64,000 bases of DNA from Schizochytrium sp. TIO01 (Eukaryota > Sar > Bigyra > Thraustochytrida > Thraustochytriidae). Positions 1 to 64,000 of the stretch are shown in pieces; the stretch's first letter is position 1, and each line of letters starts with the position of its first letter. Position numbers and translations under genes: made by a program. Location of the stretch: positions 1,411,102-1,475,101 of the forward strand of contig SMSO01000025.1 of the NCBI GenBank assembly GCA_004764695.1, read 5' to 3'. The notes under the pieces are model-generated. The model was not told the DNA's origin. It saw only the letters and a list, made by a program, of their open reading frames with translations, and did not search any database.

Positions 1-3000
1 GCTAGAGAGCTGGTTCCTGAGTAAAGATTAAGAGCCCCACCAGCTGCCGCACTACTCGAGCCAGCTGTGACTGTTACAGCCCCACCAGCTGCATTGGATG
101 AAGATCCCGCAGTAATAACTACAGCCCCGCCAACTCCAGAATTGCCAGATCCAACAGAGAGGGTAATCGAACCTCCAGCCCCACTAACCCCTGTGCCTGT
201 AGATATGCTGATAGCTCCAGACGAGCCAGCTGTGGACGAACCTGTGGAGACCGTAATTGTTCCAGTCACACCACTGGATCCTGCGTTTGGAGTAGATATT
301 ACGATACCACCACTGGAAGTAGCAGTACCCTCACCGCTTCGCAGAGAGAGAGTGCCTCCAGAGGAGGCAGTGCCTGCTCCAGCCTCAATGGTAATTGCAC
401 CACCAGCTCCTCCAGTCGAAGTTGTTCCGTCTCCACCATAAATGTAAACAGCCCCGCCAGCCTTTGAGTTGGCTGAAGTGTGTCCAGCCTGAAGCAAGAT
501 ATCACCTCCGGCACCGCTTGTACCTGATCCAACACTTAATGTAATTTGACCGCCTTCGCCATTTGCAGTTGTTGCTCCACTTTGCAGTGTTATGTCTCCA
601 GAGTTTCCACTTGTGGTCGTGCCCGAGGACAGGGTAATGGAGCCAGAAGCACCGCTTGTGCCAGCATTTGCACTCTTTATTGTAATACTACCACTGGAGG
701 CGGATGTTGACCCCCCAGACTGAATAAGAACATTTCCTCCTGTTAGACCGACTGATGTTCCTGCATAAAGGCTCAGTTGTCCACCTGGACTTCCAGAGCC
801 GGCCCCAACAGCAATAGTGATAGGTCCTCCAGATCCTCCTGCATTTGCTGTACCCGTAGATATAGTAATAGAGCCAGAGGTGCCAGATGTTGAAGTGCCA
901 GTCTTAATTGTTAGCGCTCCACTAACGCCTGTTGTCCCAGAATCAGCACTTTTCAGAGTTACATCTCCGCTTGTCGATTCCGTACTTGCACCTGAAGATA
1001 GAATTAATGCACCGCCAGTCAAAGCTGTTGAGGTGCCACCTGAGACAGTTGCACTACCGCCAATACTATTCGTGCTCGAGGTGCTCGCACCACCAGTCAC
1101 CGAGATAGCACCACCTGTTTTAGACGCTGCACTTGTGGATCCTCCACTTAGTGTAACAGTTTGGCCATCACCTGCTGTACTCACTCCAGGGTTCATTGTA
1201 ATTGCACCTGCCTGACCATTTGAGCCTGTGCCAGTTACGAGCTGGATATCGCCGCTTTTTCCCGAAGTTGAGCTACCAGTAGATATAAAGATAGAACCAC
1301 TGACACCAGATGTACCAGCATTCGGTGTTTTAATGTAAATATGTCCACTTGACGAGTCTGCACTACTGCCCGAAGTAAATGTCAGCGAACCACCAGTAAG
1401 GTGTTGAGCTAGTCCTCCAGAAATCAAAACTGCACCTCCAACGCTATTTGTTACGCTAGAGCTTGCACCAGCAGTGAGAGTTAAGGCTCCACCTGTGGAG
1501 GTAGCTCCAGATGCAGACCCGGCAGCAATCGTAATAGCCGCACCTGAAATAGTATTCGCCGAACTAGTCCCAGCAGAAATAACAACACCTCCACTAGTTG
1601 TGCCAGTACTAGTGGACAATGTGATAGAACCTGTAGATCCACTTGCAGAAACGCCGGATGCAATGGTAACACTGCCACTCGATGATGCAGTACCTGCACC
1701 AGAAGTGATTGAAACTGCTCCGCCGGTATGTGCACCAGCTCCAGCAGTCAGAGTTATTCCACCTCCAGTCGCGGCAGAGGAGTGAGTTGACTGACCAGCA
1801 GTAACTGTTACACTTCCACCTGTCGCAGCAGGTCCACTGCCAACACTCAACGAAATTGATCCACCAGCTCCTGCAGTACCAGCTGTGCCAGTCGACACAG
1901 TGAATCCTCCAGAGTTACCACTTGAAGACGAGCCTGTTGAAATACTCACCGAACCGCTAGCTCCACTGGTACCCGCATTTGGAGTGATCAAAGTGATTGC
2001 GCCAGTTGTAATCCCAGATCCAGAGGTAAACGTCAATGCACCTCCTGTTCCAGATGTTGAGCCACCGCCAATCAGTTGAACAGAGCCACCAACACCCGAA
2101 GATGTTGAGCCACCCGTAAGTTCCACTGAGCCGCCAGTGCCCGTACCACTTGCACCACCGCCATTCAGATTCAATGCAGCCCCGCCAGCATTAGTACCAG
2201 TGCTCGTACTCGGGCCAATCGTGATGGCACCTGAGGTTCCTGAGGTTGTAGTACCACTAGAAATCGTAACAGTTCCAGACGTACCAGTGGTTCCAGTGCC
2301 TGAAGTCAGAGAAAGAGCCCCGCCAGATGTTCCACTGCCAGCATCGATGCTTGCATCGCCTCCAACAGTACTACCTACACCAGCTGCAAGAATGAGGTCA
2401 CCACCAACATCGTTGCTACTGTCACCAGCAGTGACTGTTACTGCACCGCCAGTGCCTGAGGTGCTAGTTCCGGTTGAGATCGTGATCGAACCACCAGCCG
2501 TTGTTGCTGTACCGGTACTCAAGGTCAGCGATCCCGAAGCACCTGCGGTTCCTGAGCCTGATCGGATGGTCACTGCACCAGAAGAAGCAGCGTCACTACT
2601 TCCAAACATAGCAGTTCCACTTGTAGTTGAACCAGATCCTGAGAACAACGACAAACCACCGCCACTTGCTCCAGACGATACTCCACCGTTGATCGTAACA
2701 GTTCCTGCCACACCTGATACACTAGTTCCCGCGTAAATGTTGACACTACCCCCTGTTGCGCTAGTTCCAGATGTCTGGCCACCACGAATTGTCACGCTTC
2801 CTGCATTCCCAGCAGTACTCAAACCAGGAATCAACTTAATCTCACCAGTAGAACCTGCAGATGTTCCAGTTGAAATAGTGACAACCCCCGTTGATCCACT
2901 TGTCGAGGAACCTGAACCCAGATCCACAGTACCAGATACTGCTGATGTTGTTCCAACCCCTGAAGTAATTGAAACTGCTCCGCCGGTATGTGCACCAGCT

Positions 3001-6000
3001 CCAGCAGTCAGAGTTATTCCACCTCCAGTCGCGGCAGAGGAGTGAGTTGACTGACCAGCAGTAACTGTTACACTTCCACCTGTCGCAGCAGGTCCACTGC
3101 CAACACTCAACGAAATTGATCCACCAGCTCCTGCAGTACCAGCTGTGCCAGTCGACACAGTGAATCCTCCAGAGTTACCACTTGAAGACGAGCCTGTTGA
3201 AATACTCACCGAACCGCTAGCTCCACTGGTACCCGCATTTGGAGTGATCAAAGTGATTGCGCCAGTTGTAATCCCAGATCCAGAGGTAAACGTCAATGCA
3301 CCTCCTGTTCCAGATGTTGAGCCACCGCCAATCAGTTGAACAGAGCCACCAACACCCGAAGATGTTGAGCCACCCGTAAGTTCCACTGAGCCGCCAGTGC
3401 CCGTACCACTTGCACCACCGCCATTCAGATTCAATGCAGCCCCGCCAGCATTAGTACCAGTGCTCGTACTCGGGCCAATCGTGATGGCACCTGAGGTTCC
3501 TGAGGTTGTAGTACCACTAGAAATCGTAACAGTTCCAGACGTACCAGTGGTTCCAGTGCCTGAAGTCAGAGAAAGAGCCCCGCCAGATGTTCCACTGCCA
3601 GCATCGATGCTTGCATCGCCTCCAACAGTACTACCTACACCAGCTGCAAGAATGAGGTCACCACCAACATCGTTGCTACTGTCACCAGCAGTGACTGTTA
3701 CTGCACCGCCAGTGCCTGAGGTGCTAGTTCCGGTTGAGATCGTGATCGAACCACCAGCCGTTGTTGCTGTACCGGTACTCAAGGTCAGCGATCCCGAAGC
3801 ACCTGCGGTTCCTGAGCCTGATCGGATGGTCACTGCACCAGAAGAAGCAGCGTCACTACTTCCAAACATAGCAGTTCCACTTGTAGTTGAACCAGATCCT
3901 GAGAACAACGACAAACCACCGCCACTTGCTCCAGACGATACTCCACCGTTGATCGTAACAGTTCCTGCCACACCTGATACACTAGTTCCCGCGTAAATGT
4001 TGACACTACCCCCTGTTGCGCTAGTTCCAGATGTCTGGCCACCACGAATTGTCACGCTTCCTGCATTCCCAGCAGTACTCAAACCAGGAATCAACTTAAT
4101 CTCACCAGTAGAACCTGCAGATGTTCCAGTTGAAATAGTGACAACCCCGTTGATCCACTTGTCGAGGAACCTGAACCCAGATCCACAGTACCAGATACTG
4201 CTGATGTTGTTCCAACCCCTGAAGTAATTGAAACTGCGCCACCCGCAGCAGACCCTTGGCCAGCAGTAAAAGTCAACGCACCTCCAGTAGCAGCATTGGA
4301 CGTTCCTGCAGAAATCGCAACAGCACCACCAGTGCCAGATGAGCTAGCGCCAGCAGTCAATGTAATTGCACCTCCAGCAACAACACTGGCAGCATTGGCA
4401 GCACCGGCCAAGATCTGAACACCACCACCAGTGCCAGTAGCACTGCCACCTGCAGATAGCTTCACAAGACCTCCGCTGCCAGCTGTGGATGCGGTGCTTG
4501 TTGATAGAGTCAATGCACCAGTTGATCCAGAGGTAGCTGTACCAGTTGAAATAGTCACAGCACCACTTGTGCCTAGAGCAGCAGTACCAGATGCGATCGT
4601 TACAGCACCACCAGCAGTTGAGCCAGCTCCAGAAGTAAGATCGATATGTCCGCCGATTCCTGCAGATGAGGCTCCTGAAGTCAAGGTGATAGCCCCACCA
4701 GTTCCAGAGCCAGTGAGTCCACCGGCAGTCAGGACGATGTTTCCTGCAGTACTAGACGTCGCACCGGTGCTGAGTGTCAATGTTCCACTAGTACCAGTGG
4801 TAGTCGTACCTGTCTTCACAGTGATTGAGCCACTGTTGGTTGCATCAGGAGTTGCAATGGTTACTGCACCACTGGAAGTTCCGTCACCAGAATTAAAACT
4901 CAACGATCCACCAGTACCAGAACTATCAGCACCGCCATCAATCGTCACATCGCCGCCAGTACCTCCGGTACTCGAGCCACCTTTCAGTACCAAGGTACCA
5001 CCTGTATTAGCTCCAGTCGTAGCTCCGGCTTGAACTGTAACATCACTGCCATCCGTACTGCTATCACCAGCACTGATCGTAACTGTACCTGCAGTAGTGC
5101 TGGCAAGTCCAGATGAAAGCACAATCGACCCAGAGGTACCGCTTGCACTTCCGGTTGACAATGTCAGAGGACCACTGAAAGATGTGGTTGCCGCCGATGC
5201 AGCACTGCCAATCGTCACGGCTCCAGAGCTAGTACTTGAACCAGAAGTAAAAACAAGCGCACCACCTATTCCACCAGTGGCGATACCCGCAGTCAGCGTG
5301 ATATCGCTTCCTGTAGTCTGGCTGGTCGAACCAACACTGAGTGTGATTGCACCTGCAGACCCACCAACCGCAGTGCCAGTTGACAACGACACGGCACCGG
5401 AAGTACCAGCACTGGAACTGCCCGTAGAAAGACCAATGGCGCCAGTTCCAGTTGATCCTGATGAAGTCAAAGTAATTGCTCCACTACTGACCGATCCAGA
5501 TCCTGACGTCACAGCGATTGCACCACCTGTGCCAGTTGTTGCCGTACCAGAACTGATCACTACTTGGCCACCAGTACCGGAGGTACTATCACCAGCGTAC
5601 ATGTTCACAGCACCACCGACCATACCAGAAGCTACAGTTTTGCCTGCGTAAATCGACACGGCTGCTCCGTTACCGCCAGAAGAGACACCAACTGACAGCG
5701 TCATTGCGCCCGCGGTACCTCCGGAGCCAGCGTTGCTGGTGGAAAGTGTTAAACTGCCACTGCCAGCAGTACTGGATGCCGCACCACTTGAAATGCTGAC
5801 AGCACCGCTTAGTCCGGTTCCTCCAGCGCCTGAAGTAATTGTAACTGCGCCACCCGCAGCAGAGCCTTGGCCTGCTGTAAATGACAAGTCACCACCCGTA
5901 GCAGCTGTAGCCTGACCTGCAGTGATGGTTACATCACCACCCGCAGTACTGCCACTGCCGACAGTTATCGAGATAGCACCTCCAGCACCACCTGTACCTG

Positions 6001-9000
6001 CGCCACCAGTCTGAATTGTAACACCACCAGTGGTACCACTTGATGATGTGCCAGTACTGATTGTGATACCGCCGCTAACTCCACTTGTACCACTGTTGGG
6101 AGTGGTCATAGAGATAGAACCACTGGTAACACCACTGCCTGAAGTGAAGGTCAATGCACCACCAGTAGTGGTAACGGAAGCTCCCGCAGTAATTGCAACA
6201 GCACCACCAGTGCCAGATGAGCTAGCACCAGCAATCAATGTGATCGCTCCTCCAACAGCGTTTGCAGCATTGGCAGCACCGGCCAAAATCTCAACACCAC
6301 CACCAGTGCCAGTAGCACTGCCACCTGCAGACAACTTTACAAGACCTCCGCTGCCAGCTGTGGATGCGGTGCTTGTTGATAGAGTCAATGCACCAGTGGA
6401 TCCAGAGGTAGCTGTACCAGTTGAAATAGTCACAGCACCACTTGTGCCTAGAGCAGCAGTACCAGATGCGATCGTTACAGCACCACCGGCAGTTGAGCCA
6501 GCTCCAGAAGTAAGATCGATGTGTCCGCCGATTCCTGTAGATGAGGCTCCTGAAGTCAAGGTGATAGCCCCACCAGTGCCAGATCCAGTGAGTCCACCGG
6601 CAGTCAGGACGATGTTTCCTGCAGTACCAGACGTTGCACCGGTGCTGAGTGTCAATGTTCCACTAGTACCAGTGGTAGTTGCACCTGTTTTGATAGTGAT
6701 CGAGCCACTAGACACTGAATCGGCACTTGAAAATGTCGCATCTCCACTGGTCGACCCTGTGCCAGTTGTAAAGGTAAGTTCACCGCCAATACCTGAAGAA
6801 CTAGAACCAGCAGATAAAATGACAGTTCCACCAACACCATTGGCGCCTTGACTAGCGCCTGCATATAATGACACAGAACCTCCAGTCTTACTTGCAGCTG
6901 TTGTTAGACCAGCAGTCAATGTAATAGTACCACCATCGTTAGTATCACCATCACCAACAGTCATCGAGATGACGCCACCACTACCAGAGGTGGCATCTCC
7001 AGTACTAACAGTAATGGAACCTGTCGATCCTTGTGCTGATGAACCAGTAGACAGCGAGATTCCACCACTAATACCAGAAGCCCCCGAGTTTGGTGTATTC
7101 AATGAAATGATTCCAGTAGTCACCCCAGAACCAGATTTCAAAATTAAAGATCCACCAGTACCAGTACTATCAGGACCGCCATCAATCGTCACATCGCCGC
7201 CAGTACCTCCAGTACTCGAGCCACCTTTCAGTACCAAGGTACCACCTGTATTAGCTCCAGTCGTAGCTCCGGCTTGAACAGTAACATCACTGCCATCCGT
7301 ACTGCTATCACCAGCACTGATCGTAACAGTACCTGCAGTAATGCTGGCAAGTCCAGATGAAAGCACAATCGACCCAGAGGTACCGCTCGCACTTCCGGTT
7401 GACAATGTCAGAGGACCACTGAAAGATGTGGTTGCCGCCGATGCAGCACTGCCAATCGTCACGGCTCCAGAGCTAGTACTTGAACCAGAAGTAAAAACAA
7501 GCGCACCACCTGTTCCACCAGTGGCGATACCCGCAGTGAGCGTGATATCGCTTCCTGTGGTCTGGCTGGTCGAACCAACACTGAGTGTGATTGCACCTGC
7601 AGACCCACCAACCGCAGTGCCAGTTGACAACGACACGGCACCGGAAGTACCAGCAGTGGAACTGCCCGTGGACAGACCAATGGCGCCAGTTCCAGTTGAT
7701 CCTGATGAAGTCAAAGTAATTGCTCCACTACTGACCGATCCAGATCCTGACGTCACAGCGATTGCACCACCTGTGCCAGTTGTTGCCGTACCAGAACTGA
7801 TCACTACTTGGCCACCAGTACCGGAGGTACTATCACCAGCGTACATGTTCACAGCACCACCCACCATACCAGAAGCTACAGTTTTGCCTGCGTAAATCGA
7901 CACGGCAGCTCCGTTACCGCCAGAAGAGACACCAACTGACAGCGTCATTGCGCCCGCGGTACCTCCGGAGCCAGCGTTGCTGGTGGAAAGTGTTAAACTG
8001 CCACTGCCAGCAGTACTGGATGCCGCACCACTTGAAATGCTGACAGCACCGCTTAGTCCGGTTCCTCCAGCGCCTGAAGTTATTGTAACTGCGCCACCTG
8101 CAGCAGAGCCTTGGCCTGCTGTAAATGACAAGTCACCGCCGGTCGAAGCTGTAGCCTGACCTGCAGTGATGGTTACATCACCACCCGCAGTACTGCCACT
8201 GCCGACAGTTAAAGAGATAGCACCTCCAGAACCACCTGTACCTGCGCCACCAGTCTGAATGGTAACACCACCAGTGGTTCCACTGGATGATGTGCCAGTA
8301 CTGATTGTGATACCTCCGCTAACTCCACTCGTACCACTGTTGGGAGTGGTCATGGAGATAGAACCACTGGTAACACCGCTGCCTGACGTGAAAGTCAATG
8401 CACCGCCAGTAACAGCATTGGACAATCCTGCAGAAATTGCAACAGCACCACCAGTGCCAGATGAGCTAGCGCCAGCCGTCAATGTGATTGCACCTCCAGC
8501 AACGACACTAGCAGCATTGGCAGCACCGGCCAAGATCTGAACACCACCACCAGTGCCAGTAGCACTGCCACCTGCAGACAACTTTACAAGACCTCCGCTG
8601 CCAGCTGTGGATGCGGTGCTTGTTGAAAGAGTCAATGCACCAGTGGATCCAGAGGTAGCTGTACCAGTTGAAATAGTCACAGCACCACTTGTGCCTAGAG
8701 CAGCAGTACCAGATGCGATCGTTACAGCACCACCAGCAGTTGAGCCAGCTCCAGAAGTAAGATCGATGTGTCCGCCGATTCCTGTAGATGAGGCTCCTGA
8801 AGTCAAGGTGATAGCCCCACCAGTGCCAGAGCCAGTGAGTCCACCGGCAGTCAGGACGATGTTTCCTGCAGTACCAGACGTTGCACCGGTGCTGAGTGTC
8901 AATGTTCCACTAGTACCAGTGGTAGTAGTACCTGTCTTCACAGTGATTGAGCCACTGTTCGTTGCATCAGGAGTTGCAATGGTTACTGCACCACTGGAAG

Positions 9001-12000
9001 TCCCGCCGCCAGACTGCAGGGTGACTGCACCACCAGTACCAGTACTTGAATCGGCGCCGCCATTAATGGTGACTTGACCGCCAGTACCAGATGCACTTGC
9101 ACCACCCGCTAGTGCGAGCGTTCCACCAACTGCAGATGCGAAAGTGGTCGCACCACCAGTCAAAGTTGCACCAGCACCATTGGCACCGGCGGTTGTGCCT
9201 GCACTAATGGTGATAGCTCCACCTGTGCCACTTGAAGCGCCAGACGCGATTGTAACATCTCCAGAGACCCCACTTGAGGAATCTCCAGTGACAATATCAA
9301 TAAAGCCACTAACAGCGCCACTCTGAGCAGCACCGGCAGCAGTAAGAATAGAAACGGAGCCACTCGATGCGCCAGTTGAAGTGCCAGCGCCTGAAGTCAT
9401 AGAAATGCTTCCGCCTGTGTTAGCACTTGAACTACCTGCGCTAAAAGTGAGGGCGCCACCAGTACCACTGCTGCTGCTACCAACAAAAAGTGAGATGTCA
9501 CCACCCTTGCCAGCCACGGCAGTACCAGTGCTTATTGTAACATCACCTGAGGATCCACCCGTAGCAGATCCAGTAGAAATTGTCAAAGCTCCTGTTGCTT
9601 GGGATGAGCTACTGGATATATCGACAGCGCCACTCGAGGTGCCGGAACCTGAGCTCAAGGTCAAAGCACCGCCAAATGCTGAGGACGAGACGCCTCCGGC
9701 AATGGTGACGCTACCTCCAATTCCGGTGCCACCAGAACCCGCAGTGATACCTACCGAACCACCAACAGTAGAGCCTTGGCCAGCAGTAAATGTCAATGCA
9801 CCGCCTGTCGCAGCTGTAGCTTGACCTGCAGTGATGGTGACACCACCACCCGCAGTACTGCCACTGCCGACAGTTATCGAGATAGCACCTCCAGCACCAC
9901 CAGTACCTGCGCCACCAGTCTGAATTGTAACACCACCAGTGGTACCACTTGATGATGTGCCAGTACTGATTGTGATACCGCCGCTAACTCCACTTGTACC
10001 ACTGTTGGGAGTGGTCATAGAGATGGAACCACTGGTAACACCGCTGCCTGACGTGAAAGTCAATGCACCGCCAGTAATAGCACTGGATAATCCTGCAGAA
10101 ATCGCAACAGCACCACCAGTGCCAGATGAGCTAGCGCCAGCAGTCAATGTAATTGCACCTCCAGCAACGACACTAGCAGAGTTGGCAGCACCGGCCAAGA
10201 TCTGAACACCACCACCAGTGCCAGTAGCACTGCCACCTGCAGACAACTTAACAAGACCTCCGCTGCCAGCTGTGGATGCGGTGCTTGTGGATAGAGTCAA
10301 TGCACCAGTTGATCCAGAGGTAGCTGTACCAGTTGAAATAGTCACAGCACCACTTGTGCCTAGAGCAGCAGTACCAGATGCGATCGTTACAGCACCACCA
10401 GCAGTTGAGCCAGCTCCAGAAGTAAGATCGATGTGTCCGCCGATTCCTGTAGATGAGGCTCCTGAAGTCAAGGTGATAGCGCCACCAGTGCCAGAGCCAG
10501 TGAGTCCACCGGCAGTCAGGACAATGTTTCCGGCAGTACTAGACGTCGCACCGGTGCTAAGTGTCAATGTTCCACTAGTACCAGTGGTAGTAGTACCTGT
10601 CTTCACAGTGATTGAGCCACTGTTCGTTGCATCAGGAGTTGCAATGGTTACTGCACCACTGGAAGTTCCGTCACCAGAATTAAAACTCAACGATCCACCA
10701 GTACCAGTACTATCAGCACCGCCATCAATCGTCACATCGCCGCCAGTACCTCCGGTACTCGAGCCACCTTTCAGTACCAAGGTACCACCTGTATTAGCTC
10801 CAGTCGTAGCTCCGGCTTGAACTGTAACATCACTGCCATCCGTACTGCTATCACCAGCACTGATCGTAACAGTACCTGCAGTAGTGCTGGCAAGTCCAGA
10901 TGAAAGCACAATCGACCCAGAGGTACCGCTTGCACTTCCGGTTGACAATGTCAGTGGACCACTGAAAGATGTGGTTGCCGCCGATGCAGCACTGCCAATC
11001 GTCACGGCTCCAGAGCTAGTACTTGAACCAGAAGTGAAAACAAGCGCACCACCTGTTCCACCAGTGGCGATACCTGCAGTGAGCGTGATATCGCTTCCTG
11101 TAGTCTGGCTGGTCGAACCAACACTGAGTGTGATTGCACCTGCAGACCCACCAACCGCAGTGCCAGTTGACAACGACACGGCACCGGAAGTACCAGCAGT
11201 GGAACTGCCCGTGGACAGACCAATGGCTCCAGTTCCAGTAGATCCTGATGAAGTCAAAGTAATTGCTCCACTACTGAGTGATCCAGATCCTGACGTCACA
11301 GCGATTGCACCACCTGTGCCAGTTGTTGCCGTACCAGAACTGATCACTACTTGGCCACCAGTACCGGAGGTACTATCACCAGCGTACATGTTCACAGCAC
11401 CACCGACCATACCAGAAGCTTCAGTTTTGCCTGCGTAAATCGACACGGCAGCTCCGTTACCGCCAGAAGAGACACCAACTGACAGCGTCATTGCGCCCGC
11501 GGTGCCTACGGAGCCAGCGTTGCTGGTGGAAAGTGTTAAACTGCCACTACCAGCAGTACCGGCTGCCGCACCACTGGAAATGCTGACAGCACCGCTTAGT
11601 CCGGTTCCTCCAGTGCCTGAAGTTATTGTAACTGCGCCACCCGCTGCAGAGCCTTGGCCTGCTGTAAATGACAAGTCACCACCCGTAGCAGCTGTAGCCT
11701 GACCTGCAGTGATGGTTACATCACCACCTGCAGTACTGCCACTGCCGACAGTTATCGAGATAGCACCTCCAGCACCACCTGTACCTGCGCCACCAGTCTG
11801 AATTGTAACACCACCAGTGGTACCACTTGATGATGTGCCAGTACTGATTGTGATACCGCCGCTAACTCCACTTGTACCACTGTTGGGAGTGGTCATAGAG
11901 ATGGAACCACTGGTAACACCGCTGCCTGACGTGAAAGTCAATGCACCGCCAGTAATAGCACTGGATAATCCTGCAGAAATCGCAACAGCACCACCAGTGC

Positions 12001-15000
12001 CAGATGAGCTAGCGCCAGCGGTCAATGTGATTGCACCTCCAGCAACGACACTAGCAGAGTTGGCAGCACCGGCCAAGATCTCAACACCACCACCAGTGCC
12101 AGTAGCACTGCCACCTGCAGACAACTTAACAAGACCTCCGCTGCCAGCTGTGGATGCGGTGCTTGTGGATAGAGTCAATGCACCAGTTGATCCAGAGGTA
12201 GCTGTACCAGTTGAAATAGTCACAGCACCACTTGTGCCTAAAGCAGCAGTTCCAGATGCGATCGTTACAGCACCACCAGCAGTTGAGCCAGCTCCAGAAG
12301 TAAGATCGATGTGTCCGCCGATTCCTGTAGATGAGGCTCCTGAAGTCAAGGTGATAGCCCCACCAGTGCCAGAGCCAGTGAGTCCACCGGCAGTCAGGAC
12401 GATGTTTCCTGCAGTACCAGACGTTGCACCGGTGCTGAGTGTCAATGTTCCACTAGTACCAGTGGTAGTAGTACCTGTCTTCACAGTGATTGAGCCACTG
12501 TTCGTTGCATCAGGAGTTGCAATGGTTACTGCACCACTGGAAGTCCCGCCGCCAGACTGCAGGGTGACTGCACCACCAGTACCAGTACTTGAATCGGCAC
12601 CGCCATTAATGGTGACTTGACCGCCAGTACCAGATGCACTTGCACCACCCGCTAGTGCGAGCGTTCCACCAACTGCAGATGCGAAAGTGGTCGCACCACC
12701 AGTCAAAGTTGCACCAGCACCATTGGCACCGGCGGTTGTGCCTGCACTAATGGTGATAGCTCCACCTGTGCCACTTGAAGCGCCAGACGCGATTGTAACA
12801 TCTCCAGAGACCCCACTTGAGGAATCTCCAGTGACGATATCAATAAAGCCACTAACAGCGCCACTCTGAGCAGCACCGGCAGCAGTAAGAATAGAAACAG
12901 AGCCACTCGATGCGCCAGTTGAAGTGCCAGCGCCTGAAGTCATAGAAATGCTTCCGCCTGTGTTAGCACTTGAACTACCTGCGCTAAAAGTGAGGGCGCC
13001 ACCAGTACCACTGCTGCTGCTACCAACAAAAAGTGAGATGTCACCACCCTTGCCAGCCACGGCAGTACCAGTGCTTATTGTAACATCACCTGAGGATCCA
13101 CCCGTAGCAGATCCAGTAGAAATTGTCAAAGCTCCTGTTGCTTGGGATGAGCTACTGGATATATCGACAGCGCCACTCGAGGTGCCGGAACCTGAGCTCA
13201 AGGTCAAAGCACCGCCAAATGCTGAGGACGAGACGCCTCCGGCAATGGTGACGCTACCTCCAATTCCGGTGCCACCAGAACCCGCAGTGATACCTACCGA
13301 ACCACCAACAGTAGAGCCTTGGCCAGCAGTAAATGTCAATGCACCGCCTGTCGCAGCTGTAGCTTGACCTGCAGTGATGGTGACACCACCACCCGCAGTA
13401 CTGCCACTGCCGACAGTTATCGAGATAGCACCTCCAGCACCACCAGTACCTGCGCCACCAGTCTGAATTGTAACACCACCAGTGGTACCACTTGATGATG
13501 TGCCAGTACTGATTGTGATACCGCCGCTAACTCCACTTGTACCACTGTTGGGAGTGGTCATAGAGATAGAACCACTTGTAACACCACTGCCTGAAGTGAA
13601 GGTCAATGCACCACCAGTAGTGGTAACGGAAGCTCCCGCAGTAATCGCAACAGCACCACCAGTGCCAGATGAGCTAGCACCAGCAGTCAATGTGATCGCT
13701 CCTCCAACAGCGCTTGCAGCATTGGCAGCACCTGCAGAAACTTGAACCGACCCCCCGACACCGGTCGCACTACCGCCAGCAGACAACACGACATTCCCAG
13801 CTGTTCCTGACGTTGCTTCACCAGTTGAAATAGTTACAGTTCCCGTTCCGGTAGTTCCAGATGTACCGGAAGATACAGTTACACCACCACTCTTCAGGCT
13901 GCCACCTGTGCCTGACGTGATTGTAACTGCACCACCACTTGTTGAGCCCTGGCCAGCAGTAAATGTCAATGCACCGCCCGTCGCAGCTGTAGCTTGACCT
14001 GCAGTGATCGTTACACCACCACCAACAGTACTGCCACTGCCGACACTCATCAAGATAGATCCTCCAGCACCACCTGTACCTGCGCCACCAGTCTGAATCG
14101 TAACACCACCAGTGGTACCACTTGATGATGTGCCTGTACTGATTGTGATACTTCCGCTAACTCCACTTGTACCACTGTTGGGAGTGGTCATGGAGATAGA
14201 ACCACTGGTAACACCGCTGCCTGACGTGAAAGTCAATGCACCGCCAGTAACAGCATTGGACAATCCTGCAGAAATCGCAACAGCACCACCAGTGCCAGAT
14301 GAACTAGCGCCAGCGGTCAATGTTATTGCACCTCCAGCAACGACACTGGCTGAGTTGGCAGCACCGGCCAAGATCTCAACACCACCACCAGTGCCAGTAG
14401 CACTGCCACCTGCAGACAACTTAACAAGACCTCCGCTGCCAGCTGTGGATGCGGTGCTTGTGGATAGAGTCAATGCACCAGTTGATCCAGAGGTAGCTGT
14501 ACCAGTTGAAATAGTCACAGCACCACTTGTGCCTAGAGCAGCAGTACCAGATGCGATCGTTACAGCACCACCAGCAGTTGAGCCAGCTCCAGAAGTAAGA
14601 TCGATGTGTCCGCCGATTCCTGTAGATGAGGCTCCTGAAGTTAAGGTGATAGCCCCACCAGTGCCAGAGCCAGTGAGTCCACCGGCAGTCAGGACAATGT
14701 TTCCGGCAGTACTAGACGTCGCACCGGTGCTAAGTGTCAATGTTCCACTAGTACCAGTGGTAGTAGTACCTGTCTTCACAGTGATTGAGCCACTGTTCGT
14801 TGCATCAGGAGTTGCAATGGTTACTGCACCACTGGAAGTTCCGTCACCAGAATTAAAACTCAACGATCCACCAGTACCAGTACTATCAGCACCGCCATCA
14901 ATCGTCACATCGCCGCCAGTACCTCCGGTACTCGAGCCACCTTTCAGTACCAAGGTACCACCTGTATTAGCTCCAGTCGTAGCTCCGGCTTGAACTGTAA

Positions 15001-51000: not shown

Positions 51001-54000
51001 GCAGGAGATCCAGTACCGTCTCCAGCAGTCATCACAATAGCACCACCTGTCCCGGTATCAGCACTGCTGTCACCTGCCGTTATGGTCACCATACCACCAG
51101 TTGAGACATCTCCAGTACCAACAAGTAAGGAAATATCTCCTCCTTTGCCTGTGACGGCTGTTCCAGTGGAAATGTAAACTTCGCCAGAATATCCAGCAAT
51201 CGTACTTCCAGTAGAAAGAGAGATGCTGCCACTTGTACCAACGGACCCACCATTTGGCGTCTCTATAACAATATGACCGCTAGATTTTGTTGAGCCAGTA
51301 CCAGACGTGAAGGTCATTGAACCACCAGTCAAGTCATTGGTTGAGCCTGCGGTCAACGCTACAAGGCCACCAGCACCGGAAGTACCAGTGCCTACTGACA
51401 AAGTAATATCTCCACCAGTGCCTCCTGATGCATCACCAGTTATAACCTTGAACTCGCCAGTATCTCCAATGGTCGTGCTGCCAGTTGTAATCGTCACAGC
51501 ACCACTGACACCACTGACACCACCTGTCCCACCATCCGCAGTGACAAGTTCAATACTTCCACTAGAAGAAGCAGAGCCTGCTCCAGTGGTTAGTCTAATG
51601 CGACCTCCAGTGTTGGAAGCACCAACACCTGAGGTAATATCAATCGAGCCACCAACGCTAGCAGGAGAACCAGTACCGTCTCCAGCAGTCATCACAATAG
51701 CACCACCTGTCCCGGTATCAGCACTGCTGTCACCTGCCGTAATGGTCACCATACCACCAGTTGAGACATCTCCAGTACCAACAAGTAAGGAAATATCTCC
51801 TCCTTTGCCTGTGACGGCTGTTCCAGTGGAAATGTAAACTTCGCCAGAATATCCAGCAATCGTACTACCAGTAGAAAGCGAAATACTGCCACTTGTACCA
51901 GCGGAGCCACCATTTGGCGTCTCAATAACAATATGACCACTGGACTTCAACGATCCAGCACCAGAGGTGAAGGTCATTGAACCACCGGTTAAGTCATTGG
52001 TTGAGCCTGCAGTCAACGCAACAAGGCCACCAGCACCGGAAGTACCAGTGCCTACTGACAAAGTAATATCTCCACCAGTGCCTCCTAATGCATCACCAGT
52101 CACAACTTTGAACTCGCCAGTATCACCAGCTCCAGCATCTCCAGTTGTGATCGTCACTGCACCACTGACACCACCTGTGCCACCATCAGCAGTGACAAGT
52201 TCAATACTACCACTAGAAGTAGCGGAGCCCGCTCCAGTTGTGAAACGAATACGACCTCCAGTGTTGGTATTTCCGACGCCTGATGTAATATCAATCGATC
52301 CACCAACACTTGCAGGAGATCCAGTACCGTCTCCAGCAGTCATCACAATAGCACCACCTGTTCCGGTATCAGCACTGCTGTCACCTGCCGTAATGGTCAC
52401 CATACCACCAGTTGAGACATCTCCAGTACCAACAAGTAAAGAAATATCTCCTCCTTTGCCAGTGACCGCTGTTCCAGTGGAAATGTAAACTTCGCCAGAA
52501 TATCCAGCATTAGTACTGCCAGTAGAAAGCGAAATACTGCCACTTGTACCAGCGGAGCCACCATTTGGCGTCTCAATAACAATATGACCACTGGACTTCA
52601 ACGATCCAGCACCAGAGGTGAAGGTCATTGAACCACCGGTTAAGTCATTGGTTGAGCCTGCAGTCAACGCAACAAGGCCACCAGCACCGGAAGTACCAGT
52701 GCCTACTGACAAAGTAATATCTCCACCAGTGCCTCCTGATGCATCACCAGTTACAACCTTGAACTCGCCAGTATCTCCAATGGTCGTGCTGCCAGTTGTA
52801 ATCGTCACAGCACCACTGACACCACTGACACCACCTGTCCCACCATCCGCAGTGACAAGTTCAATACTTCCACTAGAAGAAGCAGAGCCTGCTCCAGTGG
52901 TTAGTCTAATGCGACCTCCAGTGTTGGAAGCACCAACACCTGAGGTAATATCAATCGAGCCACCAACGCTAGCAGGAGAACCAGTACCGTCTCCAGCAGT
53001 CATCACAATAGCACCACCTGTCCCGGTATCAGCACTGCTGTCACCTGCCGTAATGGTCACCATACCACCAGTTGAGACATCTCCAGTACCAACAAGTAAA
53101 GAAATATCTCCTCCTTTGCCAGCAATTGCTGTTCCAGTGGAAATGGAAACTTCACCAGAATATCCAGCATTAGTACTGCCAGTAGAAAGCGAAATACTGC
53201 CACTTGTACCAGCGGAGCCACCATTTGGCGTCTCAATAACAATATGACCACTGGACTTCGACGATCCAGCACCAGCGGTGAAGGTCATTGAACCACCGGT
53301 CAAGCATTGGTTGAGCCTGCGGTCAACGCAACAAGGCCACCAGCACCGGAAGTACCAGTGCCAACGGAGAGAGTAATATCTCCACCAGTGCCACCTGATG
53401 CATCACCAGTGACAACTTTGAACTCGCCAGTATCACCAGCTCCAGCATCTCCAGTTGTGATCGTCACTGCACCACTGACACCACCTGTGCCACCATCAGC
53501 AGTGACAAGTTCAATACTTCCACTAGAAGAAAGAGAGCCTGCTCCAGTAGTTAGTCTAATGCGACCTCCAGTGTTGGAAGCACCAACTCCTGAGGTAATA
53601 TCAATTGAGCCACCAACACTAGCAGGAGAACCAGTACCGTCTCCAGCAGTCATCACAATAGCACCACCTGTCCCGGTATCAGCACTGCTGTCACCTGCAG
53701 TTATGGTCACCATACCACCAGTTGAGACATCTCCAGTACCAACAAGTAAGGAAATATCTCCTCCTTTGCCTGTGACGGCTGTTCCAGTGGAAACGTAAAC
53801 TTCGCCAGAATATCCAGCAATCGTACTTCCAGTAGAAAGAGAGATGCTGCCACTTGTACCAGCGGAGCCACCATTTGGCGTCTCTATAACAATATGACCG
53901 CTGGACTTCGACGAGCCAGAACCGGACGTGAATGTCATCGAACCACCGGTCAAGTCATTGGTTGAGCCTGCAGTCAATGCAACAAGGCCACCAGCACCGG

Positions 54001-57000
54001 AAGTACCAGTGCCAACGGAGAGAGTAATATCTCCACCAGTGCCTCCTGATGCATCACCAGTCACAACTTTGAACTCGCCAGTATCACCAGCTCCAGCATC
54101 TCCAGTTGTGATCGTAACGGCACCACTGACACCATCTGTGCCACCATCAGCAGTGACAAGTTCAATACTACCACTAGAAGTAGCGGAGCCCGCTCCAGTT
54201 GTGAAACGAATACGACCTCCAGTGTTGGTATTTCCGACGCCTGATGTAATATCAATCGATCCACCCACACTTGCAGGAGATCCAGTACCGTCACCAGCAG
54301 TCATCACAATAGCACCACCTGTCCCGGTATCAGCACTACTGTCACCTGCAGTTATGGTCACCATACCACCAGTTGAGACATCTCCAGTACCAACAAGTAA
54401 AGAAATATCTCCTCCTTTGCCAGTGACCGCTGTTCCAGTGGAAATGTAAACTTCGCCAGAATATCCAGCATTAGTACTGCCAGTAGAAAGCGAAATACTG
54501 CCACTTGTACCAGCGGAGCCACCATTTGGCGTCTCAATAACAATATGACCACTGGACTTCAACGATCCAGCACCAGAGGTGAAGGTCATTGAACCACCGG
54601 TTAAGTCATTGGTTGAGCCTGCAGTCAACGCAACAAGGCCACCAGCACCGGAAGTACCAGTGCCTACTGACAAAGTAATATCTCCACCAGTGCCTCCTGA
54701 TGCATCACCAGTCACAACTTTGAACTCGCCAGTATCACCAGCTCCAGCATCTCCAGTTGTGATCGTCACTGCACCACTGACACCACCTGTGCCACCATCA
54801 GCAGTGACAAGTTCAATACTACCACTAGAAGTAGCGGAGCCCGCTCCAGTGGTTAGTCTAATGCGACCTCCAGTGTTGGAAGCACCAACACCTGAGGTAA
54901 TGTCGATTGATCCACCAACACTTGCAGGAGATCCAGTACCGTCTCCAGCAGTCATCACAATAGCACCACCTGTCCCGATATCAGCACTGCTGTCACCTGC
55001 CGTAATGGTCACCATACCACCAGTTGAGACATCTCCAGTACCCACAAGTAAAGAAATATCTCCTCCTTTGCCTGTGACGGCTGTTCCAGTGGAAATGTAA
55101 ACTTCGCCAGAATATCCAGCATTAGTACTGCCAGTAGAAAGCGAAATACTGCCACTTGTACCAGCGGAGCCACCATCTGGCGTCTCAATAACAATATGAC
55201 CACTGGACTTCAAGGATCCAGCACCGGAGGTGAAGGTCATTGAACCACCGGTCAAGGCATTGGTTGAGCCTGCGGTCAACGCAACAAGGCCACCAGCACC
55301 GGAAGTACCAGTGCCTACTGACAGAGTAATATCTCCACCAGTGCCACCTGATGCATCACCAGTCACAACTTTGAATTCGCCAGTATCACCAGCTCCAGCA
55401 TCTCCAGTTGTGATCGTCACTGCACCACTGACACCACCTGTGCCACCATCAGCAGTGACAAGTTCAATACTACCACTAGAAGTAGCGGAGCCCGCTCCAG
55501 TTGTGAAACGAATACGACCTCCAGTGTTGGTATTTCCGACGCCTGATGTAATATCAATCGATCCACCCACACTTGCAGGAGATCCAGTACCGTCACCAGC
55601 AGTCATCACAATAGCACCACCTGTCCCGGTATCAGCACTACTGTCACCTGCAGTTATGGTCACCATACCACCAGTTGAGACATCTCCAGTACCAACAAGT
55701 AAAGAAATATCTCCTCCTTTGCCAGTGACCGCTGTTCCAGTGGAAATGTAAACTTCGCCAGAATATCCAGCATTAGTACTGCCAGTAGAAAGCGAAATAC
55801 TGCCACTTGTACCAGCGGAGCCACCATTTGGCGTCTCAATAACAATATGACCACTGGACTTCAACGATCCAGCACCAGAGGTGAAGGTCATTGAACCACC
55901 GGTTAAGTCATTGGTTGAGCCTGCAGTCAACGCAACAAGGCCACCAGCACCGGAAGTACCAGTGCCTACTGACAAAGTAATATCTCCACCAGTGCCTCCT
56001 GATGCATCACCAGTCACAACCTTGAACTCGCCAGTATCTCCAATGGTCGTGCTGCCAGTTGTAATCGTCACAGCACCACTGACACCACTGACACCACCTG
56101 TGCCACCATCCGCAGTGACAAGTTCAATACTTCCACTAGAAGAAGCAGAGCCTGCTCCAGTGGTTAGTCTAATGCGACCTCCAGTGTTGGAAGCACCAAC
56201 TCCTGAGGTAATATCAATCGAGCCACCAACGCTAGCAGGAGAACCAGTACCGTCTCCAGCAGTCATCACAATAGCACCACCTGTGCCGGTATCCGCACTG
56301 CTGTCACCTGCCGTAATGGTCACCATACCACCAGTTGAGACATCTCCAGTACCAACAAGTAAAGAAATATCTCCTCCTTTGCCAGCGACCGCTGTTCCAG
56401 TGGAAATGTAAACTTCACCAGAATATCCAGCATTAGTACCGCCAGTAGAAAGAGAGATGCTGCCACTTGTACCAGCGGAGCCACCATTTGGCGTCTCAAT
56501 AACAATATGACCGCTGGACTTCGACGATCCAGCACCGGACGTGAAGGTCATTGAACCACCTGTTAAGTCATTGGTTGAGCCTGCCGTCAACGCAACAAGG
56601 CCACCAGCACCGGAAGTACCAGTGCCTACTGATAAAGTAATATCTCCGCCAGTGCCACCACTTGCTGTTGCATCACCAGTCACTACCTTGAACTCGCCAG
56701 TATCACCAGCTGCAGCGTCGCCAGTTGTGATTGTCACAGCACCGCTGACACCAGCTAGACCTCCATCTGCAGTAACAAGTTCAATACTGCCACTGGAAGT
56801 AGCCGTGCCAGCGCCTGTAGTTAGTCGGATACGACCACCAGTTTTGCTTGCACCGACACCAGATGTGATATCAATAGAGCCACCCACGCCAGATGTAGCA
56901 CCACTGGCAGCACCTGCAGTCATCACAATAGCGCCACCGGTACCGGTCGCAGCTCTGTTCAGGCCTGCAGTGATTGTAACTTGACCACCTGTATCCACAT

Positions 57001-60000
57001 CACCTGAGCCGACCAGCAATGAGATATCACCACCCTTGCCAGCTGTTGCACTACCAGTCGAGATCATAACTTCGCCAGCATAACCGTTCACAGTGGTTCC
57101 AGTCGACAATGAAATACTGCCACTGGTTCCTGTTGTGCCGCTATTTGGTGTTTCAATGACAACATGTCCACTTGATGATGTAGAGCCAAGTCCTGACGTA
57201 AATGTCATAGAACCACCAGTTAAAGCACTGGTCGAACCAGCCGTCAACGCAACAAGACCTCCAGCACCAGAAGTACCAGTGCCAACGGAGAGAGTAATAT
57301 CTCCACCGGTGCCACCTGATGCATCACCAGTCACAACCTTGAACTCGCCAGTATCACCAGCTGCTGTATCTCCCGTTGTGATTGTCACAGCACCGCTAAC
57401 ACCACTTGTGCCACCATCGGAAGTAACAAGTTCAATACTACCACTTGAAGAAGCTGTGCCAGCGCCTGTAGTCAAACGAATGCGGCCACCAGTTTTACTT
57501 GCACCGACACCAGATGTGATATCAATAGAGCCACCTACGCCAGATGTAGTACCACTGGCAGCACCTGCAGTCATCACAATAGCGCCACCGGTACCGGTCG
57601 CAGCTCTGTTCAGGCCTGCAGTGATTGTAATTTGACCACCTGTATCCACATTACCAGAGCCAACGAGCAAGGAGATATCACCACCCTTGCCAGCTGTTCC
57701 ACTACCGGTCGAGATCATAACTTCGCCAGCATAACCGTTCACAGCGGTTCCAGTCGATAATGAAATACTGCCACTTGTTCCTGTTGTGCCACCATTTGGT
57801 GTGTCGATGACAATATGTCCACTTGATGATGCAGAGCCAAGTCCTGACGTAAATGTCATAGAACCACCAGTTAAAGCACTGGTCGAACCAGCCGTCAACG
57901 CAACAAGACCTCCAGCACCAGAAGTACCAGTGCCAACGGAGAGAGTAATATCTCCACCGGTGCCACCTGATGCATCACCAGTCACAACCTTGAACTCGCC
58001 AGTATCACCAGCGGCTGTACCTCCCGTTGTGATTGTCACAGCACCGCTAACACCAGCTAGACCACCATCGGAAGTAACAAGTTCGATACTGCCACTTGAA
58101 GAAGCTGTGCCAGCGCCTGTAGTAAGTCGAATACGACCACCAGTTTTGCTTGCACCGACACCAGATGTGATATCAATAGAGCCACCCACGCCAGATGTAG
58201 TACCACTTGCAGCACCTGCAGTCATTACAATAGCGCCACCGGTACCGGTCGCAGCTCTGTTCAGGCCTGCAGTGATTGTAACTTGACCACCTGTATCCAC
58301 ATCACCTGAGCCGACCAGCAATGAGATATCACCACCCTTGCCAGCTGTTGCACTACCAGTCGAGATCATAACTTCGCCAGCATAACCGTTCACAGCGGTT
58401 CCAGTCGACAATGAAATACTGCCACTGGTTCCTGTTGTGCCGCTATTTGGTGTTTCAATGACAACATGTCCACTTGATGATATAGAGCCAAGTCCTGACG
58501 TAAATGTCATAGAACCACCAGTTAAAGCACTGGTCGAACCAGCCGTCAACGCAACAAGACCTCCAGCACCAGAAGTACCAGTGCCAACGGAGAGAGTAAT
58601 ATCTCCACCGGTGCCACCTGATGCATCACCAGTCACAACCTTGAACTCGCCAGTATCACCAGCTGCTGTATCTCCCGTTGTGATTGTCACAGCACCGCTG
58701 ACACCACTGGTGCCACCATCGGAAGTAACAAGTTCAATACTGCCACTTGAAGAAGCTGTGCCAGCGCCTGTAGTCAAACGAATGCGGCCACCAGTTTTGC
58801 TTGCACCGACACCAGATGTGATATCAATAGAGCCACCCACGCCAGATGTAGTACCACTGGCAGCACCTGCAGTCATCACAATAGCGCCACCGGTACCGGT
58901 CGCAGCTCTGTTCAGGCCTGCAGTGATTGTAACTTGACCACCTGTATCCACATCACCTGAGCCAACCAGCAATGAGATATCACCACCTTTGCCAGCTGTT
59001 GCACTACCGGTCGAGATCATAACTTCGCCAGCATAACCGTTCACAGCGGTTCCAGTCGACAATGAAATACTGCCACTGGTTCCTGTTGTGCCACCATTTG
59101 GTGTGTCGATGACAATATGTCCACTTGATGATGCAGAGCCAAGTCCTGACGTAAATGTCATAGAACCACCAGTTAAAGCACTGGTCGAACCAGCCGTCAA
59201 CGCAACAAGACCTCCAGCACCAGAAGTACCAGTGCCAACGGAGAGAGTAATATCTCCACCGGTGCCACCTGATGAATCGCCAGTCACAACCTTGAACTCG
59301 CCAGTATCACCAGCTGCTGTATCTCCCGTTGTGATTGTCACAGCACCGCTGACACCACTTGTGCCACCGTCGGAAGTAACAAGTTCGATACTGCCACTGG
59401 AAGAAGCTGTGCCAGCGCCTGTAGTCAAACGAATGCGGCCACCAGTTTTGCTTGCACCGACACCAGATGTGATATCAATAGAGCCACCCACGCCAGATGT
59501 AGTACCACTTGCAGCACCTGCAGTCATTACAATAGCACCACCAGTACCAGTGGAAGCTCTGTTCAAACCTGCAGTGATTGTAACTTGACCACCTGTATCC
59601 ACATTACCTGAGCCAACCAGCAATGAGATATCACCACCCTTGCCAGCTGTTGCACTACCAGTCGAGATCATAACTTCGCCGGCATAACCGTTCACAGCGG
59701 TTCCAGTCGACAATGAAATACTGCCACTGGTTCCTGTTGTTCCGCCATTTGGTGTGTCAATGACAATATGTCCACTCGATGATGATGAGCCAGCACCGGA
59801 TGTGAAAGTCATTGAACCACCGGTTAAGTCATTGGTTGAGCCTGCATTCAACGCAACGAGCCCACCAGCACCGGAGGTACCGGTGCCAACTGACAAAGTA
59901 ATATCTCCACCAGTGCCACCACTTGCTGTTGCATCACCAGTAACAACCTTGAACTCGCCAGTATCACCAGCTCCAGCATCTCCAGTTTTGATCGTCACTG

Positions 60001-63000
60001 CACCACTAACACCACTTGTGCAACCATCAGCAGTGACAAGTTCAATACTACCACTAGAACTAGAAGTTCCTTCACCAGTGGTTAGACGAATACGACCTCC
60101 AGTGTACTTAGCACCAACACCAGAGGAGATATCGATGGAACCACCAACACTAGCTGTAATTCCAGTACCGTCTCCAGCAGTCATCACAATAGCACCACCT
60201 GTGCCGGTATTAGCACTGCTGTCACCTGCAGTAATCGTCACCATACCACCAGTTGAGACATCTCCAGTACCAACAAGTAAAGAAATATCTCCTCCTTTGC
60301 CAGCGAACGCTGTTCCGGTGGAAATGTAAACTTCGCCAGAATCTCCAGCATTAGTACTGCCAGTAGAAAGCGAAATACTGCCACTTGTACCAGCGGAGCC
60401 ACCATTTGGCGTCTCAATAACAATATGACCGCTGGACTTCAACGATCCAGCACCAGAGGTGAAGGTCATTGAACCACCGGTTAAAGCACTGGTCGAACCA
60501 GCCGTTACCGCAACAAGACCTCCAGAACCGGAAGTACCGGTGCCAACGGAGAGAGTAATATCTCCACCGGTGCCACCTGATGCATCACCAGTCACAACCT
60601 TGAACTCGCCAGTATCACCAGCGGCTGTATCTCCCGTTGTGATTGTCACAGCACCGCTAACACCAGCTAGACCACCATCGGAAGTAACAAGTTCGATACT
60701 GCCACTGGAAGAAGCAGTGTGCCAGCGCCTGTAGTCAAGTCGAATGCGGCCACCAGTTTTGCTTGCACCGACACCAGATGTGATATCAATAGAGCCACCC
60801 ACGCCAGATGTAGTACCACTGGCAGTACCTGCAGTCATCACAATAGCGCCACCGGTACCGGTCGCAGCTCTGTTCAGGCCTGCAGTGATTGTAACTTGAC
60901 CACCTGTATCCACATCACCTGAGCCAACCAGCAATGAGATATCACCACCTTTGCCAGCTGTTGCACTACCGGTCGAGATCATAACTTCGCCAGCATAACC
61001 GTTCACAGCGGTTCCAGTCGACAATGAAATACTGCCACTGGTTCCTGTTGTGCCACCATTTGGTGTGTCGATGACAATATGTCCACTTGATGATGTAGAG
61101 CCAAGTCCTGACGTAAATGTCATAGAACCACCAGTTAAAGCACTGGTCGAACCAGCCGTCAACGCAACAAGACCTCCAGCACCAGAAGTACCAGTGCCAA
61201 CGGAGAGAGTAATATCTCCACCGGTGCCACCTGATGCATCACCAGTCACAACCTTGAACTCGCCAGTATCACCAGCGGCTGTATCTCCCGTTGTGATTGT
61301 CACAGCACCGCTAACACCAGCTAGACCACCATAGGAAGTAACAAGTTCGATACTGCCACTGGAAGAAGCTGTGCCAGCGCCTGTAGTCAAACGAATGCGG
61401 CCACCAGTTTTGCTTGCACCGATACCAGATGCAATATCAATAGAGCCACCTACGCTAGACGTAGTACCACTGGCAGTACCTGCAGTCATCACAATAGCGC
61501 CACCGGTACCGGTCGCAGCTCTGTTCAGGCCTGCAGTGATTGTAACTTGACCACCTGTATCCACATCACCTAAGCCAACCAGCAATGAGATATCACCACC
61601 TTTGCCAGCTGTTGCACTACCGGTCGAGATCATAACTTCGCCAGCATAACCGTTCACAGCGGTTCCAGTCGACAATGAAATACTGCCACTGGTTCCTGTT
61701 GTGCCGCCATTTGGTGTGTCAATGACAATATGTCCACTCGATGATGATGAGCCAGCACCGGATGTGAATGTCATTGAACCACCGGTCAACGCATTGGTTG
61801 AGCCTGCAGTCAACGAAACAAGGCCACCAGCACCGGAAGTACCAGTGCCTACTGATAAAGTAATATCTCCACCAGTGCCACCTGATGCATCACCAGTCAT
61901 AACCTTGAACTCGCCAGTATCACCAGCTGCTGTATCTCCCGTTGTGATTGTCACAGCACCGCTGACACCACCTGTGCCACCATCGGAAGTAACAAGTTCG
62001 ATACTGCCACTTGAAGAAGCTGTGCCAGCACCAGTAGTCAAACGAATGCGGCCACCAGTTTTGCTTGCACCGACACCAGATGTGATATCAATAGAGCCAC
62101 CCACGCCAGATGTAGTACCACTGGCAGCACCTGCAGTCATCACAATAGCGCCACCGGTACCAGTCGCAGCTCTGTTCAGGCCTGCAGTGATTGTAACTTG
62201 ACCACCTGTATCCACATCACCTGAGCCGACCAGCAATGAGATATCACCACCCTTGCCAGCTGTTGCACTACCGGTCGAGATCATAACTTCGCCAGCATAA
62301 CCGTTCACAGCGGTTCCAGTCGACAATGAAATACTGCCACTGGTTCCTGTTGTGCCACCATTTGGTGTGTCGATGACAATATGACCACTCGATGATGCAG
62401 AGCCAAGTCCTGACGTAAATGTCATAGAACCACCAGTTAAAGCACTGGTCGAACCAGCCGTCAACGCAACAAGACCTCCAGCACCGGAGGTACCGGTTCC
62501 AACGGAGAGAGTAATATCTCCACCAGTGCCACCACTTGCTGTTGCATCACCAGTCACAACTTTGAACTCTCCAGTATCACCAGCTGCGGCGTCGCCAGTT
62601 GTGATCGTCACAGCACCGCTGACACCAGCTAGACCTCCATCTGCAGTAACAAGTTCAATACTGCCACTGGAAGTAGCGGTGCCTGCGCCTGTAGTTAGTC
62701 GGATACGACCACCAGTTTTACTTGCACCGACACCAGATGTGATATCAATAGAGCCACCCACGCCAGATGTAGCACCACTGGCAGCACCTGCAGTCATCAC
62801 AATAGCGCCACCGGTACCGGTCGCAGCTCTGTTCAGGCCTGCAGTGATTGTAACTTGACCACCTGTATCCACATTACCTGAGCCGACCAGCAATGAGATA
62901 TCACCACCCTTGCCAGCTGTTGCACTACCGGTCGAGATCATAACTTCACCAGCATAACCGTTCACAGAGGTTCCAGTCGACAATGAAATACTGCCACTGG

Positions 63001-64000: not shown

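Follow-up and report, generated by a model that had tools for sequence, protein, structure and literature searches.

We find that the stretch of DNA analysed here, a window of 64,000 nt on contig C24 (C24:1411102-1475101; C24 position = window coordinate + 1411101) of a 64.06-Mb assembly in 37 contigs, lies entirely inside a giant minus-strand gene of 105,189 bp (C24:1405272-1510460), and the reading that we favour, albeit with appreciable reserve, is that a thraustochytrid-like stramenopile carries here one functional gene of about 105 kb, apparently in a single exon, whose product is a secreted fibre protein some 35,000 aa long. A preliminary description, made from the window alone, had proposed a single gene of more than 64 kb with both ends out of view, and extension into the flanks bore this out: the start ATG lies at 99359 (extrapolated window coordinates), 35.4 kb to the right of the window and with an in-frame stop shortly upstream, the stop codon ends at -5829, 5.8 kb to the left, and the breaks in the frame are base-level indels. 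The N-terminus opens with MSRIHKSS...FLGMFALLALMNIAAVDGDS, a leader-like hydrophobic segment (identified without signal-peptide prediction), such that two of the three elements anticipated in the flanks, the start and the leader, were found, but the third, a C-terminal anchor, was not seen: the C-terminal end is a small, soluble-looking domain, no membrane anchor or transmembrane helices were seen, and the most hydrophobic windows of the read-through occur only in a damaged island (see below). Read through the breaks, the conceptual protein comprises about 35,066 aa (3.16 MDa, pI 4.35; G 24%, S 18%, T 15%, A 11%) and runs from the leader through a Cys-rich PSI domain (27 bits versus a cut-off of 23.1) and coils with two internal Peptidase_S74 domains to the small C-terminal domain; Cys is nearly absent except in the N-terminal domain, the final 100 residues and the damaged island. 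The gene appears to be intronless, but its ends and the absence of splicing are inferred from sequence, without transcript or peptide data. Its flanking genes are cellular (MTP18, presenilin and an OSCA/TMEM63-like channel), and by these neighbours it is not a viral insertion. Upstream of it, a plus-strand neighbour (C24:1521560-1523401) gives only a weak match, short of the curated cut-off, to a galactose-binding-like (F5/F8 type C) domain and is possibly another surface protein.

The minus-strand stop-to-stop frames within the window measure 7,192, 5,629, 3,566 (edge-cut), 2,826 and 1,447 (edge-cut) codons, in line with the 7,177, 5,572, 3,565 and 2,793 codons reported before, while on the plus strand the longest frames of the array have only some 300 codons. 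With the flanks included, the frame cut by the right edge extends to 10,882 codons (window coordinates 53,303-85,948), the longest uninterrupted frame and one whose occurrence by chance has negligible probability, the next frame rightward has 4,502 codons and reaches 99,431, and the frame cut by the left edge extends to 3,390 codons, up to the stop at -5,826. From start to stop, the chain is thus 4,502, 10,882, 2,826, 5,629, 7,192 and 3,390 codons. One repeat style indeed runs across the full window, with repeat codons at both edges and neither end in view, but the claim that it is kept open throughout needs amending, as three isolated shifts of 1-2 bases and one damaged island lie inside the window (Table 1).

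Table 1. Features of the giant gene (window coordinates; negative values and values above 64000 lie outside the window)
Feature	Position	Strand	Remarks
Central 61% of giant coding sequence	1..64000	-	runs past both window edges
Cys-rich/PSI region	98877-99218	-	PSI profile match
Diverged coils, no DNA self-match of 200 bp	65600-98700 (out to 99.4 kb)	-	self-comparison
Isolated 1-base shift	about 85934	-	right of window, in unique DNA
Peptidase_S74 domain 1	80051-80236	-	E 3.8e-15, 56.4 bits vs cut-off 22; Ser6375/Lys6380
Peptidase_S74 domain 2	78260-78448	-	E 2.5e-10, 40.9 bits vs cut-off 22; Ser6971/Lys6976
Tandem units of 217-220 aa (about 651 bp, 14 coils)	37738..64000, on to about 65 kb	-	43 units in all
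Isolated break, 1-base length difference vs sibling units	53303..53402 (about 53,305)	-	
Isolated break, 2-base length difference vs sibling units	44922..45009 (about 44,960)	-	
Three higher-order blocks, about 9.96 kb (about 3,320 aa) each	5630..35529	-	97.2-97.7% identical
Damaged island, broken frame	25550..28250	-	about 34 one-base gaps vs sibling copies
Isolated break, 1-base difference in G run	4091..4343 (about 4,141)	-	vs sibling copy at about 2.9 kb
Units of 341-344 aa with 66-aa non-coil module, and C-terminal domain	about -1771 to -5829	-	left of window

The basic element of the protein is a coil of ~15 aa with the consensus G-x-[IV]-x-[LI]-x-x-G-x(6)-[GS], in which I/V and L/I positions alternate. 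We segmented about 2,190 coils (modal spacing 15, mean 15.86 aa) and found duplication at three scales: the coil, the 217-aa unit and the 3,320-aa block. The N-terminal 33.8 kb are non-repetitive at the DNA level and yet open, apart from the one shift near 85934. These layers record the growth of the gene, with unique, diverged N-terminal coils followed by the 217-aa units and then by the 10-kb blocks.

Comparison of the repeat copies with one another indicates that the sequence is coding. Among the 43 tandem units (903 pairs), mean pS is 0.423 and mean pN 0.094 (pN/pS 0.22), and the differences at the three codon positions number 21,570/14,898/73,481, an excess at the third, while two young 10-kb blocks yield a pN/pS of 0.16 at a pS of 0.06 (39/34/167 by codon position). 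These are aligned-unit values, used instead of a calculation on ungapped blocks that gave higher ratios, as such blocks can overrun the homologous ends. Judging by these patterns of substitution, purifying selection acts on the protein and not on the DNA alone. In the youngest C-terminal units (C24:1405272-1409330) pN/pS is about 1 (4 synonymous and 10 non-synonymous changes), which sets them apart from the remainder of the gene, though 14 differences are too few to conclude from.

These same copies bear on the possibility that the assembly has inflated the length, by duplicating or mis-joining blocks, so that the true gene is notably shorter (or longer if copies were collapsed). Such an error might leave behind what is seen here: three ~10-kb blocks that are 97-98% identical, some short stretches with 99-100% identity and, at the block boundary, an island that is poorly polished. 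We regard this explanation as unlikely without being able to set it aside. The three blocks differ pairwise by 2.3-2.8%, and since the mismatches are spread along the full length and are mostly synonymous, we take the blocks to be distinct copies; the gaps between intact young blocks consist of only two groups of 3 columns. Pure inflation, like satellite DNA, is further disfavoured because neither yields such pN/pS values and third-position pattern. Moreover, more than 20,000 codons lie outside the blocks, in the 33.8 kb of unique N-terminal sequence and the 43 diverged tandem units. Concatenation during assembly, named beforehand as what would refute the single gene, is contradicted by these observations.

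The frame is interrupted at five sites, comprising four isolated indels of 1-2 bases and the damaged island, and these could instead signify a decaying giant gene in which the single-base breaks are real, so that translation yields no more than the ~4,480 N-terminal aa ahead of the first break, or else separate fragments. That there are five such sites, one of them (85,934) outside the repetitive DNA, speaks for decay; this last break could be real, mis-mapping being a weaker excuse in unique DNA. Weighing against it is the distribution of the indels, as the island concentrates about 34 of them in 2.7 kb, whereas none of that kind occurs in the surrounding 13 kb, where there is one 3-base gap only, a pattern of assembly quality. 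Outside its gaps the island matches its sibling copies at 95-98%, and its read-through contains a stop; it is probably an unpolished piece of long-read assembly in a multi-copy region. At the three isolated breaks for which sibling copies exist, the siblings align straight across. In addition, recent copies to either side of the breaks show purifying selection, and more than 30,000 codons beyond the first break are still open. We therefore attribute the breaks mainly to assembly or sequencing errors, though there is no read evidence, and give decay only a small chance.

It is also conceivable, but improbable in our estimation, that the locus holds several adjacent genes or spliced exons rather than one continuous coding sequence, for the genome is eukaryotic and annotation often splits loci of this kind. 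No intron-like inserts were found at the breaks, however, and introns were rejected as their cause on this ground; no segment that follows a break has its own leader, and each takes up the same coil again in mid-unit. Neither the N-terminal nor the C-terminal domain has a second copy in the genome: a query with the C-terminal domain and one with the N-terminal region plus coils matched the genome at the giant-gene locus only. Finally, that a repeat array of biased composition should be non-coding satellite DNA that happens to lack stops in one frame can practically be discounted, given the strong third-position bias with pN/pS of 0.16-0.22, the openness of the non-repetitive N-terminal third and the in-frame domains of known families. 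A single giant gene is thus the best-supported reading, although, without reads or cDNA, the number of copies and the status of the breaks are provisional.

Two long non-coil inserts interrupt the coils to the right of the window (aa 6,281-6,504 and 6,872-7,084), and each contains one of the Peptidase_S74 domains, members of a family of self-cleaving intramolecular chaperones also named 'chaperone of endosialidase'. PHROG 1980, a phage tail-fibre family, matches both inserts (E 9e-19 and 5e-15), and the sole PDB sequence match of the first domain is the MYRF ICA domain (7dc3, E 2.8e-7). S74 domains in phage fibres are normally C-terminal, whereas those of the giant protein are internal, both being followed by further coils. 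Both copies keep, at the domain start, the catalytic Ser and, five positions further on, the Lys with which it forms the dyad that carries out self-cleavage in endosialidase and in MYRF (PMC3742443, PMC8326128). Trimerisation and self-cleavage by these domains are predicted from homology only, as are cuts before Ser6375 and Ser6971 that would leave pieces of about 6,374, 596 and 28,096 aa. Three further S74 loci are present in the genome and represent, outside MYRF, a small family of eukaryotic S74 proteins. The one at C34:4630228-4630416 encodes a protein of 463 codons with a leader-like start and S74 at its C-terminus, that at C6:1310009-1310179 a larger fibre-like protein, also with S74 at its C-terminus, and that at C36:3326875-3327057 a protein with a leader-like start in which S74 lies near the beginning and is followed by a coiled-coil-like stretch. 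No coil repeat was present in the stretch read at any of these three loci.

The regular coil length and the alternating I/V and L/I positions satisfy the sequence criterion for a beta-solenoid, which calls for regular coils with inward hydrophobic residues, but structure prediction does not settle the matter. AlphaFold returned an unusable model for two 217-aa units (pLDDT 40) and a model with almost no strands assigned for ten coils (pLDDT 74). Foldseek found no match for the coils in the PDB; with the ten coils it retrieved three proteins of uncultured tailed phages at a probability of 0.96-0.99 but with weak E values (0.06-0.1). The coils could form a single-chain beta-solenoid or part of a multi-stranded fibre, which we considered because S74 domains are present and which prediction on a monomer would miss; the AlphaFold runs do not establish the fold. 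A beta-solenoid usually rises by 0.48 nm per coil, at which rate 2,190 coils would span about 1 micrometre. Searches for sequence relatives were negative: viral contigs yielded none for the coils, the C-terminus or the S74 segment, and bacterial genome contigs yielded none either, with the caveat in both cases that low-complexity coils may be masked or missed and that absence is therefore unproven. Pfam, NCBIfam and PHROGs gave nothing significant on the coils and C-terminus, and a PDB sequence search with repeat profiles gave chance-level matches only. A single pattern match in IMG/VR proved to be an unrelated phage and was discarded.

Because it combines a leader, a PSI domain and S74 domains with acidic S/T/G-rich coils and no membrane anchor, we interpret the product of the single giant gene as a secreted structural or adhesive fibre. 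The chain would enter the secretory pathway, its coils would fold as a thin beta-solenoid or multi-stranded beta-fibre, and the S74 domains would trimerise it and cut it before the two serines, releasing a PSI-capped N-terminal fibre of ~6,370 aa, a middle piece of ~600 aa and a C-terminal fibre of ~28,100 aa that may serve in adhesion or as a surface coating of the cell wall or ectoplasmic net. A role in adhesion or as a coat is the most likely one, but this is inferred from composition, leader and domains only. Thraustochytrids attach to surfaces via the ectoplasmic net, the protein make-up of which is mostly unknown (PMC12221091), and the net as a possible site of the giant protein is plausible but untested; among the candidates tabulated in the main text for the A. 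limacinum settlement proteome, nothing is recognisable as the giant protein. The full proposal, that a titin-sized polypeptide is trimerised and cuts itself to give a micrometre-long fibre in three parts, two of them giant subunits for attachment or the ectoplasmic net, remains tentative, and we would not be surprised to see it fail.

Titin has about 34,000-38,000 aa and PKZILLA-1 about 45,000 aa, which places both in the size class of the giant protein among eukaryotic proteins. Titin, however, is intracellular, is built on Ig/FnIII domains and is encoded in 364 exons, whereas the giant protein is predicted to be secreted, consists of simple coils and apparently stems from one exon, and PKZILLA is an enzyme rather than the simple-coil fibre protein predicted here. 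Phage tail fibres and tailspikes (PF13884; PHROGs 1980, 6921, 5481, 5668) likewise carry an S74 Ser-Lys dyad after a fibre segment, which is beta-rich in them and inferred to be so here, but the giant protein is eukaryotic, predicted to be secreted and about 35,000 aa long, with two internal S74 domains and about 28,000 aa of further coils. The transcription factors MYRF and MrfA likewise have a eukaryotic S74/ICA domain; unlike them, the giant is a structural repeat protein in which no DNA-binding domain or membrane segment was found and coils flank both S74 domains. Giant bacterial extracellular repeat proteins (Velamenicoccus archaeovorus; Giant1-5 of Apilactobacillus kunkeei) are similarly huge, repetitive and predicted to be at the surface or secreted, with a function in coating or adhesion proposed for them, and the 39,678-aa ORF of V. 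archaeovorus has been proposed to form a cell coat (PMC10066038), but the gene described here is nuclear and eukaryotic and specifies 15-aa coils, PSI and S74 domains, with no transmembrane helices seen. Precedents exist for each part, in giant extracellular repeat proteins, in titin and in S74 fibres, but we found no record of their combination in a partial survey of the literature that included no eukaryotic protein database. If translated as predicted, the product would be among the largest eukaryotic proteins, made from an apparently single exon in a unicell without muscle; it would extend the eukaryotic use of the phage-type S74 chaperone from the MYRF transcription factors, where it is known, to a structural fibre, and make it testable how a secreted chain of 3 MDa is transcribed, translated, translocated and folded.

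Other features of the genome bear on the host or were noted in passing. A PfaA-type PUFA synthase with several domains (thraustochytrid-type) scores above the family cut-off and, together with the 18S rRNA genes described below, is the basis on which we infer that the host is very probably a thraustochytrid. The genome also contains an uninterrupted frame of 5,651 codons with repeated ketosynthase-type matches to the PfaA model (C3:857186-871321), which from these matches is probably a large polyketide synthase. A pattern search detected about 45 18S rRNA genes, which are single and dispersed over many contigs, often near contig ends, and do not form one array; this dispersal and the PUFA synthase fit Aurantiochytrium, for which subtelomeric rDNAs are reported according to a title cited in PMC12911909.
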